The notes under the pieces were generated by a model. The model did no database searches, had not been told where the DNA came from, and saw nothing but the letters and a program-made list of their open reading frames with translations. From assembly GCA_011390955.1 (NCBI GenBank), contig JAABRM010000037.1, forward strand, positions 1 to 64,000: a DNA stretch of 64,000 nt, read 5' to 3'. Position numbers and translations under genes: made by a program. The stretch comes from Oscillatoriales cyanobacterium (GTDB taxonomy: Bacteria > Cyanobacteriota > Cyanobacteriia > Cyanobacteriales > Laspinemataceae). This document shows positions 19,795 through 46,865 of this stretch, piece after piece (position 1 is the stretch's first letter; each line of letters opens with the position of its first letter).

Positions 19795-20544
19795 CTACAT
19801 TTTTCTTGCCCAGGCTGTTCCCGTAAACAAGAAGACAAATAAAGCCCCAGAAACCAAAGCGCCAATGTTCCATTTTATGGAATTTTTAAATAAACTGATT
19901 TGGCGATTTGATTTAGCCTCCTGAGCTTGGGTTTGCATCGTCGTTTCTGCCTGACTAATCACCTCAGAGACTTGTTTTTTAATCTCATCAATTTGTTGAG
20001 AATCCGTAATATTCGGCGCACGACCTTGGGTGTCTAAACGGCTAATCAAATCCTGCATTTCCGCTGGAGTGCTTGCCTTAGCCAGTAGATCTTTCACTTG
20101 GGCAATTTGTTCTGTCCGCTGCTTCATTTCCGTATCAATCTGAGCATTGCTGCGGTTATTCAACCGCACAGTATTGATAATTCCCAAGGGGGCTAACAAA
20201 AAAAAGATCGCCGCGAATAGCACGGTTAACCAGGACAACAACTTAACCAGGGGAATTTCCCACTTTTTCCGACCCAGTTTTTCCCCGTAAAATACCAAAA
20301 CCATCCCAATCAAAGGCACAGGAACTCTTTCCACTAATTGCCCAATGGTTTGAAATTCCCACCCCGGATTTAAGAAATCCGGGGGAATGAAAATAGAGAT
20401 GGTATCGAAGAAGGAGAAAATTAATAAACCATAGCCAATCCAGCGAAACAGCGTTGCTGACCTTAATAAGCTAAAACCAAACTGGCGAATATCTTCTACC
20501 GACTCTTGTAATTGATTGATGTTTGAGTCACTCATATTTGTCAC
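19795..20544 (-). CDS. hpsJ: HpsJ-family membrane protein
   Basis: A 249-residue protein with about three N-terminal transmembrane helices (about residues 30-55, 70-90 and 105-130), a helical soluble section rich in Gln/Asp/Lys (about 135-215) with coiled-coil character (IDEIKKQVSEVISQAETTM), and a final transmembrane helix (about 222-243). This matches the HpsJ family, linked genetically in Nostoc to hormogonium polysaccharide secretion and gliding. It follows the exosortase genes on the same strand by 52 bases, consistent with the usual pairing. A second Met at residue 4 is an equally good start. Confidence 0.8.
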   Translation of the reverse strand: MTNMSDSNINQLQESVEDIRQFGFSLLRSATLFRWIGYGLLIFSFFDTISIFIPPDFLNPGWEFQTIGQLVERVPVPLIGMVLVFYGEKLGRKKWEIPLVKLLSWLTVLFAAIFFLLAPLGIINTVRLNNRSNAQIDTEMKQRTEQIAQVKDLLAKASTPAEMQDLISRLDTQGRAPNITDSQQIDEIKKQVSEVISQAETTMQTQAQEAKSNRQISLFKNSIKWNIGALVSGALFVFLFTGTAWARKM

Positions 20545-20596
20545 TATATTGTTTACAGGTAGATTGTGATTTTTCAGGATTTCCTAAGCTGAGATT

Positions 20597-20797
20597 CTAG
20601 CATTTTATAGCCAAAAAATTGGAAAAAACTAAGTAGCTTTTTAGGGGTGGTAGATAAAGGGCTCCGGGGGTTTCCTCTTCTTTTTTTGGCGGTTCGATTT
20701 CCGGAGCGAGTAAGATTTCGATCGCCACCACCAAGATGCCAGCCAGTATTATCGCCAAAAAGGGAATGCGTAAGTTATTCAAAATACTACTCCCCAT
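20597..20797 (-). CDS. Short exosortase-operon membrane protein, probably truncated
   Basis: Only 66 residues: an N-terminal transmembrane helix (about residues 9-30, IPFLAIILAGILVVAIEILL) and a short Pro/Glu-rich tail. It starts with ATG overlapping the exosortase TAA (TAATG), so it is translationally coupled. In other cyanobacteria this position is held by an exosortase-system-associated protein of about 200 residues or more; only its anchor seems to remain here. It could alternatively be a genuinely small protein. The 52 bases between it and hpsJ cannot hold the missing part. Confidence 0.55.
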   Translation of the reverse strand: MGSSILNNLRIPFLAIILAGILVVAIEILLAPEIEPPKKEEETPGALYLPPLKSYLVFSNFLAIKC

Positions 20798-21696
20798 TAT
20801 GACTCTACCGGATCCTGTGGCTTAAGTTCATCCTGTTTCAGGAGTAACATATAGAACAGCCCGAAAATCCCGACCGCAATCATACCAAAGATCAGGGAAC
20901 CATCTCCTTCATGCCAGTAATCAAAAGAATCTGGTTTTGAGGAAGCGGCCAAAATTGCCATCAGGGCAACCCGAACCGCATTGACGATAAATCCAGTGGT
21001 TAAGGCAAAGCTGAGGATCAAAAGTTTATGAAGCCTTTGATTAAATCGTTCCAAAGGAAACATGATTAAACAAATCACCGATAGTCCCAACAGATAAGTC
21101 ATGGATTCCATCCCTGAACAGCCACCATAGACTTTGATCGACCCCCCCGGTAAATAAATGAAAACATCTTCTAAGATCAGTTCATGGCCAGTGTACCACA
21201 GCATAAAAGCGGATATTTTGGCCGTAAATGGCGAGATGTCAATTTTGAGCAAATCATTAATAATGACCCCAGGAATTCCCAAAAAAGCTAAAATAATTAG
21301 CGCTGATTTGTACTGTTTTAAGCCTTTGATGCCTGATGCGATTAAGGCAACCCCAAGCCCTGAGACAAATGGCATCAGACGCAACAGTGGATCGTAGGTA
21401 TCTAATTGACCGGAAAGTTTGGCGGGCATTGGCAGGATTGTGAATAAAAAGAAACCAATCAGTAGAGCGCCAATAAAACTGCCAATTCGATCGCTTTTCA
21501 GATTTAACTCTTGACGTTTTTCCCAAATCAGCGATCCCACAGGTAGCCAAAATAAAACACTCATGCCTAAGTGGGCTTGATCGTCGATTTTCCAAAGGAT
21601 TGCTAAGTTAACGATCGCTAATCCAATCGCGATCGCGCCTAACCAAGCGGATGGCTCTTTCAGCATTTGAACTGGATCGAGTTCGCTCTTATTCAT
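20797..21696 (-). CDS. Cyanoexosortase (probably type B)
   Basis: A 299-residue polytopic membrane transpeptidase of the exosortase/archaeosortase family, expected to cleave and anchor PEP-CTERM-type surface proteins. Catalytic residues are all present: Cys193 in YGGCSGMESM, Arg242 in NAVRVALMA and His262 in YWHEGDGSLIF. About eight hydrophobic helices are visible. First gene of a tight unit: exosortase, truncated associated protein, hpsJ. Type A and B cannot be separated by eye with certainty; the hpsJ context favours type B. Confidence 0.88.
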   Translation of the reverse strand: MNKSELDPVQMLKEPSAWLGAIAIGLAIVNLAILWKIDDQAHLGMSVLFWLPVGSLIWEKRQELNLKSDRIGSFIGALLIGFFLFTILPMPAKLSGQLDTYDPLLRLMPFVSGLGVALIASGIKGLKQYKSALIILAFLGIPGVIINDLLKIDISPFTAKISAFMLWYTGHELILEDVFIYLPGGSIKVYGGCSGMESMTYLLGLSVICLIMFPLERFNQRLHKLLILSFALTTGFIVNAVRVALMAILAASSKPDSFDYWHEGDGSLIFGMIAVGIFGLFYMLLLKQDELKPQDPVES

Positions 21697-22009: not shown

Positions 22010-24460
22010 CTAAGGATTAATTTGATACAAGCGCACGGGGTCGGGAATTCCCTTGAGTTGCTGCGCTCCGATATAGGTGACATGGATCGATAAATGATTT
22101 TTAATCACTTCATAGACCGTATCAGAAATACAAATGCCCCCTGGATTGGCTTGACTTTGCAGACGGGCGGCTAGATTCACTCCAGCCCCAAAAACATCAT
22201 CGCCACTGAAAAATACATCACCGAGATGAACCCCAATCCGATGTTCTAACACTAAATCGGGCGGTAAACTTGCCGCATTTTTCCTCAAGGTTTTTTGGAT
22301 TTGTTGAGAACAAGCCACCGCTTTGACGGCGCTGTCAAAGTAAATTAACCAGCCATCGCCGGTTGATTTGAGGACTCGTCCACCATATCGCTGACAAATT
22401 TCTCGAATTAAGTCAAAGTCTCGCTTCAATAATTCGAGCATTTGCTGTTGGTTGGCGACCATGTGAGCGGTGGAGTTGACCACATCGGTAAAAACGATCG
22501 CCGCTAAGGTACTGTTTTCTTCCAGCGACCCTAGAGAAAAAGGGGCGGCCAGAGGCATATTCTCAGGGATTGCTGACATTTGATTTGGGCTGGAAACCGG
22601 ATCCCGTGGGCGAGTTTTTTCCGGGATGTTCCCTGATGGGATGCTGCCGAAACCCCCTGGGAGGCGATCGCTGAAATATTGGCGGTATAGTTCCCCCAAA
22701 GGCATCACCGCATTGCCTTGAAATTTGACTAAGCCCATACTGCGTAATTTAAACGCTTCCGCAGCATTAATCTCGATCGCCCGATCGCATCCCATCACCT
22801 GTTTAGTCGCCGCGACTAAATCTGGATCCTGTTCTAAGTTTAATAAATGACGGCGTAAATGGTCATAGTAGGGGCCAGCTTCCGTGGGGGCAATTTGGAG
22901 AAATTCCCCTAAAGTCATGCGTCCTTTGGCAATTTGATAAAGGGCAACCCTGACTAGATAAGGATGTCCCCCCACCATTGTCATCAAATCCTGAATTTGA
23001 CTGTCAGACCAATTCAGTTGGTGACGCTGCACTAAATCTGTTACTTGTGCGGGGGTCAGTTCGGGCAAAGAAATCGGTAATCCCACATTAAACGGAGATT
23101 GATTAATATTCAGGGGGATATACACTTCTTTAGAATGGGCGATCGCCAAGCGTAAATTTTTCCACAGTGCCTCATTTTTGCCTCGTTCATGCCAAGCTCG
23201 CAGTAAGCCAAAAAAATCCGTGGCAATTTCTGGATGTTGAAAAATCCGATCCACTTCATCCAAACCCAATACCAATGGCTCGGAAATTTCTGCTAATATA
23301 TATTTTTGAAAGTATTTCGTGCATTTATTTTTACTTCCCAGGGGGCCTTTCCAATAATCATCAAGGCGATCGGCTAAATTTAATTCTTCGCTAATACTGA
23401 CACAAAACCACTGTAAAAATCGATCTAAACTCGCCAGAAATTCACCATCAGCAGATTGAAAATTTAACCCAACCGTTTGATATCCTTCCTGCTGAACTTG
23501 ATGTAATATCCGAGATATTAAAGAACTTTTGCCCATTTGTCGTGGGGCTTTGATGCGGATTAATGCGCCCGGTTTGCGAATTGTCTCGTAACATTCCTGT
23601 TCAATGGGCGGACGCTCTATATAAAATAAAGAATCTAAGGGAACCGGACCTTCTGGTTGTTCTAATTCCAGCGGCTTTGCTAATAAAAGATTGTCGGAAA
23701 AGTTGACTGGTTGATATCTCTTATGATGCGCGGCATAGTTCCTGGGTGCATCCAGATTTGGTTCAGTGGTTTTATGTAGTTTGCGCGAAACTTCTTCTAC
23801 CTTTTTTGCCGGTTCTTGGGGCTTAATTTCGGCGGAAAAATCAACTATTGGCTCAGAGGAGTCGCCTTTTTGCTTGAGAACTGGGGTTAAAGATTCGGGA
23901 ATGCCTTCTAAGGCGATCGCACTACAGCCAAATTCATAAGCATCTTCAATGGATCGGCCAGCGGCGATCGCATCATAAAACCCCACCGCAAATTTAATCG
24001 CTGCGCGATCGCCAATTTCTCGACTCATGCCAATCACATAATCAATATATTGACCAATTGCTGCCGCCTGTACTTCAGAATAGCAGGCATTCAGCAACAC
24101 ACATTTTACTTGGGTTTCAAATAATTTAAACAGTCTTGCCAATGCCACAGCACTGACTAACTTAACTTCTGATGCGTCATCCAGCAAGGCCAAACCCTCA
24201 GTCCCAGTCCCATGTCCAGAAAAATGGACAATTTGCGGCTCATAATCCAACAAAGCACGGCGCAGATCGTCAGGACGCACAGCCGTCCGAGAGATAATCT
24301 GGAACTGCTGGCAACGTTTGGATCGGGCCAACCCAGCTTGAATTTCCCGGACTTCCTCATCCAAGCGGAGTTTTTCCGTATTTTTGGGATTAGCAGCCAG
24401 TATCAGGATTTTTTTGAGAGAATCACGGCTCATAAACTTTGCTTCCCAGCGCGATCGCAT
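22010..24460 (-). CDS. CHAT protease-like / AAA-type ATPase / class III nucleotide cyclase fusion
   Basis: An 816-residue soluble protein with three modules. Residues about 15-190 form a CHAT caspase-like domain with the His-Cys dyad His83 (HFSGHG) and Cys126 (LLNACYS). Residues about 270-600 form a STAND-like ATPase (AAA_35 type) with Walker A PRQMGKSS (Lys311), Walker B LVLGLDEVD (Asp401) and the GGHPYLVR motif. Residues about 650-815 are a class III cyclase: metal ligands Asp659 (FTDVVNST) and Asp702 (GDGW), Lys698 and Asp755 expected to select adenine, and Asn762/Arg766 (VNLAARL) for catalysis. All catalytic residues are present, so cAMP synthesis is likely. ATG at residue 10 (24433) is an alternative start. 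It is a lone gene. Confidence 0.9.
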   Translation of the reverse strand: MRSRWEAKFMSRDSLKKILILAANPKNTEKLRLDEEVREIQAGLARSKRCQQFQIISRTAVRPDDLRRALLDYEPQIVHFSGHGTGTEGLALLDDASEVKLVSAVALARLFKLFETQVKCVLLNACYSEVQAAAIGQYIDYVIGMSREIGDRAAIKFAVGFYDAIAAGRSIEDAYEFGCSAIALEGIPESLTPVLKQKGDSSEPIVDFSAEIKPQEPAKKVEEVSRKLHKTTEPNLDAPRNYAAHHKRYQPVNFSDNLLLAKPLELEQPEGPVPLDSLFYIERPPIEQECYETIRKPGALIRIKAPRQMGKSSLISRILHQVQQEGYQTVGLNFQSADGEFLASLDRFLQWFCVSISEELNLADRLDDYWKGPLGSKNKCTKYFQKYILAEISEPLVLGLDEVDRIFQHPEIATDFFGLLRAWHERGKNEALWKNLRLAIAHSKEVYIPLNINQSPFNVGLPISLPELTPAQVTDLVQRHQLNWSDSQIQDLMTMVGGHPYLVRVALYQIAKGRMTLGEFLQIAPTEAGPYYDHLRRHLLNLEQDPDLVAATKQVMGCDRAIEINAAEAFKLRSMGLVKFQGNAVMPLGELYRQYFSDRLPGGFGSIPSGNIPEKTRPRDPVSSPNQMSAIPENMPLAAPFSLGSLEENSTLAAIVFTDVVNSTAHMVANQQQMLELLKRDFDLIREICQRYGGRVLKSTGDGWLIYFDSAVKAVACSQQIQKTLRKNAASLPPDLVLEHRIGVHLGDVFFSGDDVFGAGVNLAARLQSQANPGGICISDTVYEVIKNHLSIHVTYIGAQQLKGIPDPVRLYQINP

Positions 24461-24544
24461 GGCGAGAGTCTCTTCTAATCATAAACAGTCAGCCGGAATC
24501 GGCGAGGGAATGTGACAACATTTTTACAATTGGCCGATCGCCTA

Positions 24545-24596
24545 CCAGGATAGACCTATCAGGATAGACCTATCAGGATAGACCTACCAGGATATC
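24545..24596. repeat. 14-bp tandem repeat
   Basis: CAGGATAGACCTAT is repeated nearly four times (the last copies vary by one base) in the region upstream of the CHAT-cyclase gene. It may be a regulatory iteron or a simple expansion; function is unknown. Confidence 0.75.
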
Positions 24597-26186: not shown

Positions 26187-26552
26187 TCAGTCTAGAATAA
26201 CCGGATTTGGTATGACGACAAACAGAGGTCGTTCGACCATGATTCCTTGTGCCATCAAGCAACAAATCAGCGACGCATTTTGAACTATTCGATCCTTTCC
26301 GGGATCGCCCCGGTCGTGAAGCGAATTTATCGCGAAGATCGCGAATCGCCACCATCCCCAGGGACGATCGCGCCACAAATTCGATCGGTTAAATTTTTGC
26401 TTGGCTTGTGCATAAACTTCCTCAGTAATTTGAGTAAATCCATTTTCCTGAGCAAATTTTTCGATTTTTTTGCGGGCAGCAGGACGCACAAAAAAGGCCA
26501 AGAAAATTTTTGAACCTTTGAGTCTTTCTTCGGCGGATTTTGTCCATTCCAT
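26187..26552 (-). CDS. PCP_red domain protein with odd C-terminal extension
   Basis: Residues 1-55 (WTKSAEERLKG, FFVRPAARKKIEKFAQ, ITEEVYAQAK) match the PCP_red domain, found at the C-terminus of ChlB of dark-operative protochlorophyllide reductase and as stand-alone small proteins in cyanobacteria. Here it is a stand-alone copy. Residues 56-121 have no resemblance to the family and pass through DNA shared with a short dispersed repeat, so the native stop was probably lost and the frame now reads through. It ends 26 bases before the AMIN gene stop region begins on the same strand. Confidence 0.72.
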   Translation of the reverse strand: MEWTKSAEERLKGSKIFLAFFVRPAARKKIEKFAQENGFTQITEEVYAQAKQKFNRSNLWRDRPWGWWRFAIFAINSLHDRGDPGKDRIVQNASLICCLMAQGIMVERPLFVVIPNPVILD

Positions 26553-45306: not shown

Positions 45307-46651
45307 AAAGCACAAAGGCAATATTCTGATTGTTGATGATGTTCTGGAAAACCTCCGGTTGTTGTCTGAAATTTTGCATCAGCATGGTTATAAAGTCCGC
45401 AGTGTCACCAATGGCTCGATGGCTTTGAGGACGGTGCAAACTAAGCCCCCGCAGTTGATTTTGTTGGATATTCAAATGCAGGGCATGAATGGCTATGAGG
45501 TTTGCGATCGCCTCAAATCCGATCCCGCTACTCGGGAAATCCCGGTGATTTTTTTAAGTGCGATCGATGAGTTATTAAATAAAGTGAAAGCTTTTGAGGT
45601 GGGAGCTTCGGATTTTATTACTAAACCGTTCCAGGTGGAAGAAGTTTTAGTCAGAATTGAAAATCAATTAACGATTCAAAGACAAAAAGAACAGTTAAAA
45701 GAAGAAATTAAAGAACGAGAAAAAACCGAACAAGCTTTAGCAAAATCTAGAGCATTTTTAACCAGTGTGTTAAATAGTTCTCTGGAAGGAATTGCCGCAT
45801 TTCAGGCAGTCCGCGATCGCGATGGAAAAATTATTGACTTTGAGTGGTTGTTGGCCAATCATGTCACCACAAAACTATTAGGCATTGAACCGGATACCTT
45901 ACCCCGCGAACGCTTATTAGAAGGCTATCCTAATTTGCGGGAAGAACCCATATTTAACTTGGGAATTTCTGTGGTAGAACATGATGCGGTAGTTAATCAA
46001 GAATTTTGCTGCGATCGCCCAAAATTTAAGGGCTGGTATCATGTCGTCCTAGTCAAATTAGGGGATGGCTTTGTAATCAATTTCCGGGACATCACCCAAC
46101 ATAAAGAAATGGAAGCGGAATTAAAGCGTCTGGCGAATGTGGATGGCTTAACTCAGGTGGCAAATCGGCGGCGCTTTGATGAATGTTTGCAAAATGAATG
46201 GCGCCGCTGTATGCGGGAAAAACATCCTTTATCCTTAATTTTATGTGATGTGGATTCGTTTAAAGTCTATAATGATACTTATGGCCATCAAGCAGGAGAT
46301 GAAACTCTGATCAAAATCGCCCAAGCTATTCTTAAAAGTGTGAAACGGGCTGGAGATTTAGTGGCTCGATATGGGGGCGAAGAGTTTGCGGTGGTTCTGC
46401 CCAATACCCATGCCCCTGGAGCAATGGAAGTGGGGGAAGTTATTCGCGCTCAGGTGCGAGGACTACAAATTGCTAATATAAAATCTTTAGTCGGTGGATA
46501 TGTGACGGTCAGTCTGGGGGTTTCTACGATTATTCCTACAGATCGATTTTCCGCAGAATTACTGATTGCCGCAGCGGATCGAGCGCTTTATCAAGCGAAG
46601 TCTCAAGGCCGCGATCGCGTTTTGTTTGAGAAATTATCTGTTGATCGTTGA
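45287..46651 (+). CDS. Receiver - PAS - GGDEF diguanylate cyclase
   Basis: A 454-residue cytoplasmic response regulator, overlapping the hybrid kinase gene by 20 bases and likely its output. Receiver domain at 10-130 (Asp61 in LLDIQMQGMNG), a coiled-coil linker, a PAS-like segment (about 155-275) and GGDEF at about 280-450. The active site is ARYGGEEFAVVL (GGEEF at 363-367) with an intact RxxD product-inhibition site RAGD (354-357). It therefore should synthesise c-di-GMP upon phosphorylation. The gene ends in repeat DNA, so nothing downstream is cotranscribed with certainty. Confidence 0.92.
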   Translation: MKRNQAEKHKGNILIVDDVLENLRLLSEILHQHGYKVRSVTNGSMALRTVQTKPPQLILLDIQMQGMNGYEVCDRLKSDPATREIPVIFLSAIDELLNKVKAFEVGASDFITKPFQVEEVLVRIENQLTIQRQKEQLKEEIKEREKTEQALAKSRAFLTSVLNSSLEGIAAFQAVRDRDGKIIDFEWLLANHVTTKLLGIEPDTLPRERLLEGYPNLREEPIFNLGISVVEHDAVVNQEFCCDRPKFKGWYHVVLVKLGDGFVINFRDITQHKEMEAELKRLANVDGLTQVANRRRFDECLQNEWRRCMREKHPLSLILCDVDSFKVYNDTYGHQAGDETLIKIAQAILKSVKRAGDLVARYGGEEFAVVLPNTHAPGAMEVGEVIRAQVRGLQIANIKSLVGGYVTVSLGVSTIIPTDRFSAELLIAAADRALYQAKSQGRDRVLFEKLSVDR

Positions 46652-46865
46652 TTGTTGGTTGTTGATTGTTGGTTGTTGATTGTTGATTGTTGGTTGTTGG
46701 TTGTTGATTGTTGATTGTTGATTGTTGGTTGTTGATTGTTGATTGTTGGTTGTTGATTGTTGATTGTTGATTGTTGATTGTAAACTAACAGCAAATAACA
46801 AATAACAAATAACAAATAACAAACAACGAACAACCAACAACGAACAACCAACAACAAATAACCAA
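46640..46865. repeat. GTTGATTGTTGGTTG block with inverted ACAAATAACAA half
   Basis: About 150 bases of TTGTTGATTGTTGG units, then from 46786 the complementary pattern AACAAATAACAAATAACAA. The two halves could pair as a long imperfect hairpin, possibly acting as transcription terminator of the diguanylate cyclase gene. The repeat begins 14 codons or fewer from the stop, so the last codons of the gene already overlap it (end of protein: LSVDR). Confidence 0.75.

Follow-up and report, generated by a model that had tools for sequence, protein, structure and literature searches.

A protein encoded on the reverse strand of the window (the whole stretch of DNA analysed here, 64,000 nucleotides from a Planktothricoides genome) joins a CHAT domain, an AAA_35 STAND-like ATPase and a class III nucleotide cyclase in a single chain. 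Comparison with its relatives makes it reasonably likely that this protein acts as the output half of a signalling module that filamentous cyanobacteria build from two genes and two ATPases, and that its linked sensor has gone. In the module's usual form, the gene downstream would encode a partner in which a divergent AAA_35 ATPase precedes a sensor-like region, which is WD40 beside this architecture.

Results

Three domains with their catalytic residues in one chain

The original prediction had read a CHAT protease-like domain, a STAND-like ATPase and a cyclase with their catalytic residues from the sequence, and the profile search that it had asked for agrees: Pfam places CHAT, AAA_35 and Guanylate_cyc above their cut-offs (Table 1). 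The reading frame probably starts at Met10 (nt 24433), giving a protein of 807 aa, because the first ATG is not conserved and Met10 is, as judged against loci L039, L143 and L144 (numbers with L and G are our designations for loci and genomes). Three-domain proteins of this kind number at least 11, the window's included, and the counts below refer to these 11 unless otherwise stated.

Table 1. Coordinates of the features of the locus (window positions)
Feature	Position	Strand	Remarks
CDS, CHAT - AAA_35 - class III cyclase	22010..24460	-	open ORF, 816 aa
CHAT domain, residues 15-200	23861..24418	-	Pfam 43.1 bits over residues 20-174, cut-off 24
His83 codon	24212-24214	-	in HFSGHG
Cys126 codon	24083-24085	-	in NACYS
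Linker 1, residues 201-262, variable	23675..23860	-	1/62 columns invariant; pLDDT <50 over most
AAA_35 STAND-like ATPase, residues 269-597	22670..23656	-	Pfam 491.4 bits, cut-off 27; fold matches
Linker 2, residues 603-650, variable	22511..22654	-	1/48 columns invariant
Class III nucleotide cyclase, residues 653-815	22016..22504	-	Pfam Guanylate_cyc 63.8 bits, cut-off 21.9
14-bp tandem repeat, 3.9 copies	24541..24594	.	upstream of the 816-aa ORF

The CHAT His/Cys dyad is kept in 11/11 of these proteins and in all 42 CHAT-AAA_35 proteins without a cyclase that were checked, two of the 44 having been left out since their CHAT match covers less than half the length; in one of four CHAT-TIR-AAA_35 proteins the His is not visible in the dyad alignment. 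The domain matches the SAVED-CHAT structure 8tl0 at about 26% identity, by sequence and by Foldseek. With both the profile and the dyad of a CHAT protease in place, protease activity is predicted for the window protein.

The ATPase has Lys311 in Walker A and Asp401-Glu402 in Walker B, and the corresponding Lys and Asp-Glu are intact in all 11. The AlphaFold model (mean pLDDT 71.9) scores mostly 70-96 per ten-residue block over CHAT and AAA_35 and low over the cyclase, the alignment behind it having contained one other cyclase-bearing protein. Foldseek matches, each assigned to a domain from the alignment length and the target, include 2qen, ORC2, the plant NLRs RPP1 and Roq1, Avs3/4, 8bob (a maltose-system regulator that we take to be MalT), adenylyl cyclases and the activated SAVED-CHAT 8tl0. 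The matches to ORC proteins, plant NLRs and Avs3/4 bear out the STAND-like assignment, and the window protein thus has what defines a STAND NTPase, Walker A and B motifs in an AAA core of STAND/ORC-like fold; Pfam finds no nSTAND family in it at E up to 0.1. The chain is without the C-terminal sensor repeats of STAND NTPases, the cyclase occupying that place, and Pfam finds no sensor-like domain elsewhere in it; in the relatives, sensor-type repeats sit in the partner gene instead.

The metal-binding Asp residues, the Lys/Asp pair that sets adenine specificity and the Asn/Arg pair are the functional residues of class III cyclases, and all six are present here (Asp659, Lys698, Asp702, Asp755, Asn762 and Arg766) and intact in 11/11. 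The best matches among solved structures are PDB 3mr7 (E 1.9e-28) and the adenylyl cyclase Ma1120, with whose K and D Lys698 and Asp755 align; PDB titles mention 'KDA to EGY' mutants of Ma1120 with GTP. By its residues the domain is an adenine-type class III cyclase, with cAMP as the presumed product, so the combination of a protease-type and an adenine-type cyclase domain in one chain stands as originally described. The regular loss, in orthologues, of the His/Cys pair or of the cyclase Asp residues, named at the outset as the result that would make a combined function unlikely, was seen in none of the 11.

The six cyclase residues are equally intact in 6/6 AAA_35-cyclase, 3/3 cyclase-TIR-AAA_35 and 1/1 CHAT-cyclase proteins, and not intact in the one cyclase-kinase-AAA_35 protein. 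In the AAA_35-cyclase proteins that have no CHAT (L153-L158) the Walker B Glu is replaced in 6/6; a partner adjoins five of these six genes (not L155), and that of L153, the one scanned, consists of three GAF domains beyond its ATPase. At L147/L119 the cyclase holds an internal duplication of about 29 aa.

All three domains are under selection in an orphan gene

Between the window and L143, dN/dS is 0.12 in CHAT, 0.10 in AAA_35 and 0.085 in the cyclase, and 1.05 and 0.57 in linkers 1 and 2. All three domains are under purifying selection in this comparison; values of about 0.1 throughout speak against a decaying pseudogene, and the orphan is therefore not in decay. Other pairs give values between 0.03 and 0.60 for the domains and between 0.30 and 4.2 for linker 1, of which the highest rests on a very small dS.

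These values also bear on whether CHAT might be a non-proteolytic scaffold, leaving cAMP as the sole output. One protein favours this: at L159:6345-7625 (G394, a sister genus) a CHAT-cyclase fusion without AAA_35 has Arg at the catalytic His and keeps all six cyclase residues, suggesting that the cyclase output can outlive the protease. Against it, the dyad is kept throughout the 11 and the 42 proteins, and in Planktothricoides CHAT is constrained about as strongly as the cyclase, so that we hold a scaffold role to be quite unlikely.

The partner is the next gene in most relatives and is missing in Planktothricoides

The 11 proteins comprise three from Planktothricoides and one each from G390, G386, G585, G405, G578, G431, G441 and G099. 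Within the window's family, where every candidate was scored, the architecture occurs in 5/14 genomes; the scans of the phylum (386 genomes) and of the order (388 genomes) took no more than two candidates from each genome for scoring, retrieved loci for the best 30, and give lower bounds. The architecture falls in two groups on a quick AAA_35 tree, and from these sequences a single origin is neither shown nor excluded.

A divergent AAA_35 ATPase with WD40 is the next gene downstream in 7/11, at a spacing of 11-153 bases between stop-to-stop ORFs. In G386 all that is left of the partner is a stretch of 71 aa with 84% identity to its G390 counterpart. No linked partner was found at the three Planktothricoides loci: the 64-kb window has none, the G395 contig that carries the output gene has none, and in G396, a single-contig genome, none lies close to that gene. 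Given seven paired loci, one remnant and three loci with none, the window gene looks like an output gene minus its linked sensor, and the absence in Planktothricoides would then be a loss. The description of the gene as standing alone thus holds for the three Planktothricoides genomes and fails in seven of the eight others. Likewise, the ATPase had been proposed as the sensor; in 7/11 that role seems to fall to a distinct AAA_35-WD40 gene downstream, which on sequence grounds argues against the ATPase sensing by itself.

It might still be that the Planktothricoides protein has come to work as sensor and effector in one and can now do without a partner. The missing partner gene at all three loci would fit this, as would the persistence of purifying selection, but Pfam finds nothing sensor-like in the chain, and partner-type AAA_35 genes are present elsewhere in each of the three genomes. 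Examples away from the output gene are an unpaired AAA_35-NACHT gene (L168) and an AAA_35-GUN4-Macro gene (L169:2510-5044, G396). We therefore regard self-sufficiency as unlikely, if the most plausible of the alternatives. As to which gene might act in trans, L168 is the nearest by BLAST to a partner of the three-domain architecture (68% to L018), but its tree support of 84 on a long branch makes it a lead only; five other genomes match it over the AAA_35 part and not over the NACHT-membrane part.

The closest relatives are the two other Planktothricoides genomes (86-87% identity). The same neighbours surround the window gene at L143 and L144, namely genes for DUF3172, cyanoexosortase A, an HpsJ-like protein and a large protein that we presume to be helicase-like. 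Among 20 loci the window neighbours matched these two congeners alone, which speaks against positional conservation beyond the genus. Four neighbours were scanned for domains (cyanoexosortase A, the HpsJ-like protein, DUF3172 and a PCP_red protein). Two of them, cyanoexosortase A and the HpsJ-like A protein that accompanies it, lie directly downstream (19795-21696), and the PCP_red protein (26187-26552) is a small one of 121 aa, with a domain that in other settings forms the C-terminal part of protochlorophyllide reductase subunit B. The 14-bp tandem repeat that had been noted beside the gene is indeed present in the window; at L143 and L144 it is a single copy, so that it is no conserved part of the locus and is ruled out as a conserved operator. 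The window is rich in 7-bp tandem repeats, for instance 20 copies of TGTTGAT at 46639-46781.

The linkers keep no cleavage site

The original prediction went on to suggest a switch in which CHAT cuts its own protein and so frees the cyclase. Protease and cyclase do share a chain, the linkers are of low model confidence and probably flexible, and the dyad is intact in all 11. However, when the 11 proteins are aligned no conserved cleavage site is found in either linker, each of which has a single invariant column (Table 1), and linker 1 evolves at a dN/dS of 1.05 among Planktothricoides, though at 0.30 and 0.43 in two other pairs. The L159 fusion, with Arg at the catalytic His and an intact cyclase, points the same way. 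Self-cleavage is further disfavoured because class III cyclases require the pairing of two chains and not release, and on this comparison we consider such a switch very improbable.

Output and partner genes are paired across genomes

AAA_35 domains were classed by Pfam score, with cuts set by us, as output (>160 bits) or partner (about 50-130 bits). In the window genome and six others, 28/42 output genes are followed within 4 kb by a partner on the same strand (0.08 expected), as are 19/25 in five further genomes (0.05 expected); together, 47/67 output genes are paired in 12 genomes, of which 11 were picked for carrying the three-domain architecture, against 0.14 expected. These counts omit matches below 49 bits and one 66-bit G099 fragment beside a broken output gene, and include short or interrupted matches above the cuts; tandem output genes may share a partner, both being counted. 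The window gene is among the 20/67 without a partner within 4 kb, which indicate that an output gene need not always have its partner linked. Walker A is intact in 95/95 partner-domain rows, in which some genes occur twice, and the strict Walker B pattern in 77/95.

Both halves vary in what they carry. (i) Among 12 partner-type proteins, Pfam finds WD40 in six, three GAF domains in one (L153), a C-terminal CHAT in one (the second L145 partner), NACHT in one (L168, unpaired), GUN4 and Macro in one (L169, unpaired) and no further domain in L171 and L172; beside CHAT-AAA_35-cyclase genes, a simple phmmer search finds WD40 in the partners at 7/7 loci. (ii) The WD40 arrays beside this architecture are near-repetitive in 7/8 partner genes examined, the best 84-aa stretch being 80-95% identical at a spacing of 41-42 aa, while that of the WD40 partner at L145 is not (37%). 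By analogy with diversifying receptors, we read these arrays as a sign of a recognition surface that changes. (iii) In output proteins the ATPase is preceded by CHAT, TIR, trypsin-TIR, CHAT-TIR, kinase or cyclase-TIR, and in 9/17 Pfam finds a domain after it (three class III cyclases, six GGDEF); GGDEF proteins make up 6/8 output proteins of the window genome. (iv) On a quick AAA_35 tree of 107 rows the effector labels change 17 times, against a minimum of nine; the second partner tree was built without the three CHAT-TIR-AAA_35 partners and some of the CA and KA rows. (v) Between the G390 and G386 proteins (L145 and L147) dS is 0.33-0.34 in CHAT and AAA_35 versus 1.19 in the cyclase, which suggests a cyclase cassette exchanged as if by recombination.

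Two further loci illustrate the arrangement. In G390, a cyclase-TIR-AAA_35 protein (L161:4590-6752) is followed by two partner AAA_35 genes. On contig C57 of the window genome, four AAA_35-WD40 partner genes cluster beside two AAA_35-GGDEF genes (L164:10-16371), and each AAA_35 domain shares about 88-99% identity with its best match within the cluster. At E up to 0.001, the window genome as a whole yields 46 CHAT, 30 class III cyclase, 14 cNMP-binding and 16 AAA_35 matches.

Discussion

How would such a module work? The active site of class III cyclases is built from two chains, and crowding often activates caspase-fold proteases, so that one ATP-driven hetero-oligomer would be enough for both outputs without any self-cutting. 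Once a signal is sensed, the two AAA_35 ATPases would join in an oligomer that depends on ATP; this would crowd the CHAT domains into active proteases and pair the cyclase domains, creating the two-chain site from which cAMP would be made. In Planktothricoides, the output protein would be maintained with a sensor acting in trans or with a trigger of its own. Hetero-oligomerisation, co-activation and trigger are all steps that we infer. The GAF partners and GGDEF outputs speak for general signalling, and a role in cell death or defence is not established.

A Pycsar-like antiphage cyclase system appears most improbable. PADLOC does return PycC matches, all weak (best 29.7 bits), and a chat match (79.5 bits), but the cyclase has adenine-type residues and the three neighbours scanned with PADLOC, of the four, include no Pycsar effector.

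Parts of the proposed module are familiar from other systems. Activation of SAVED-CHAT is CRISPR-linked. The CHAT domain is common to the window protein, SAVED-CHAT, whose structure 8tl0 is titled an activated filament, and Craspase; those two differ, so far as their descriptions were available to us, in their CRISPR-linked activation, whereas the hub here is an ATPase. Of published ideas the nSTAND2 two-gene system comes closest; in the passages available, it likewise has a two-gene operon with a STAND-type NTPase in both genes and swappable effectors on one (Kaur et al. 2021, PMC8195603). Two of its features fail here: (i) an adjacent pair of STAND NTPase genes is absent from the window, although present at 7/11 loci; and (ii) the effector-bearing NTPase of nSTAND2 is described as eroded, with GT4 or HEPN as usual effectors in the same passages (PMC8195603), whereas the AAA_35 Lys and Asp-Glu are intact in 11/11 and the effectors are others. 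A TRADD-N protein of Gemmata massiliana, which also has a nucleotide cyclase, an FGS and a caspase domain, resembles ours in uniting a cyclase and a caspase-fold protease in one predicted conflict protein, but, as far as that text describes it, has a TRADD-N adaptor, no AAA_35 hub and another domain order (PMC8195603). Cyanobacterial metacaspases that carry GGDEF or an AAA domain similarly join a caspase fold to a cyclase-type domain or an ATPase; they are metacaspases and not CHAT proteins, and the passages seen describe neither the three parts together nor a partner ATPase (PMC3501461). APAF-1/NLR-type STAND receptors and Avs3/Avs4 share the ATPase fold, and the combination of WD40 sensor and caspase is APAF-1's, according to the portions consulted (PMC7159879); in contrast to these, sensor and output would here be on two ATPase proteins, with a second-messenger enzyme added. 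Finally, the MoxR-vWA ternary system has exchangeable slots occupied by cyclase, caspase-like, trypsin-like, TIR and kinase domains, as here, in the sections available (2020, PMC7159879), but no MoxR or vWA domain was found among the four neighbours scanned. The term AAA_35 is absent from the main texts of PMC7159879, PMC8195603 and PMC10907252; in the limited literature collection searched we found no mention of PF14516, and no AAA_35 pairs in the titles and abstract openings among the matches listed.

Taken together, these comparisons lead us to propose, more tentatively than the reading of the window protein as an output half, that paired AAA_35 ATPases form a large uncharacterised cyanobacterial class in which a sensor ATPase serves an output ATPase with exchangeable cassettes. 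An apoptosome-like assembly might then fire protease and cyclase together, and Planktothricoides could be a natural experiment in which the output half has stayed under selection after the loss of its sensor. If this were true, caspase-like proteolysis and cAMP signalling would be linked through one ATPase hub, the logic of NLRs and the apoptosome would be split over separate sensor and output proteins, and these small two-gene pairs would allow sensors (WD40, GAF) and outputs (protease, TIR, kinase, cAMP and possibly c-di-GMP) to be swapped.
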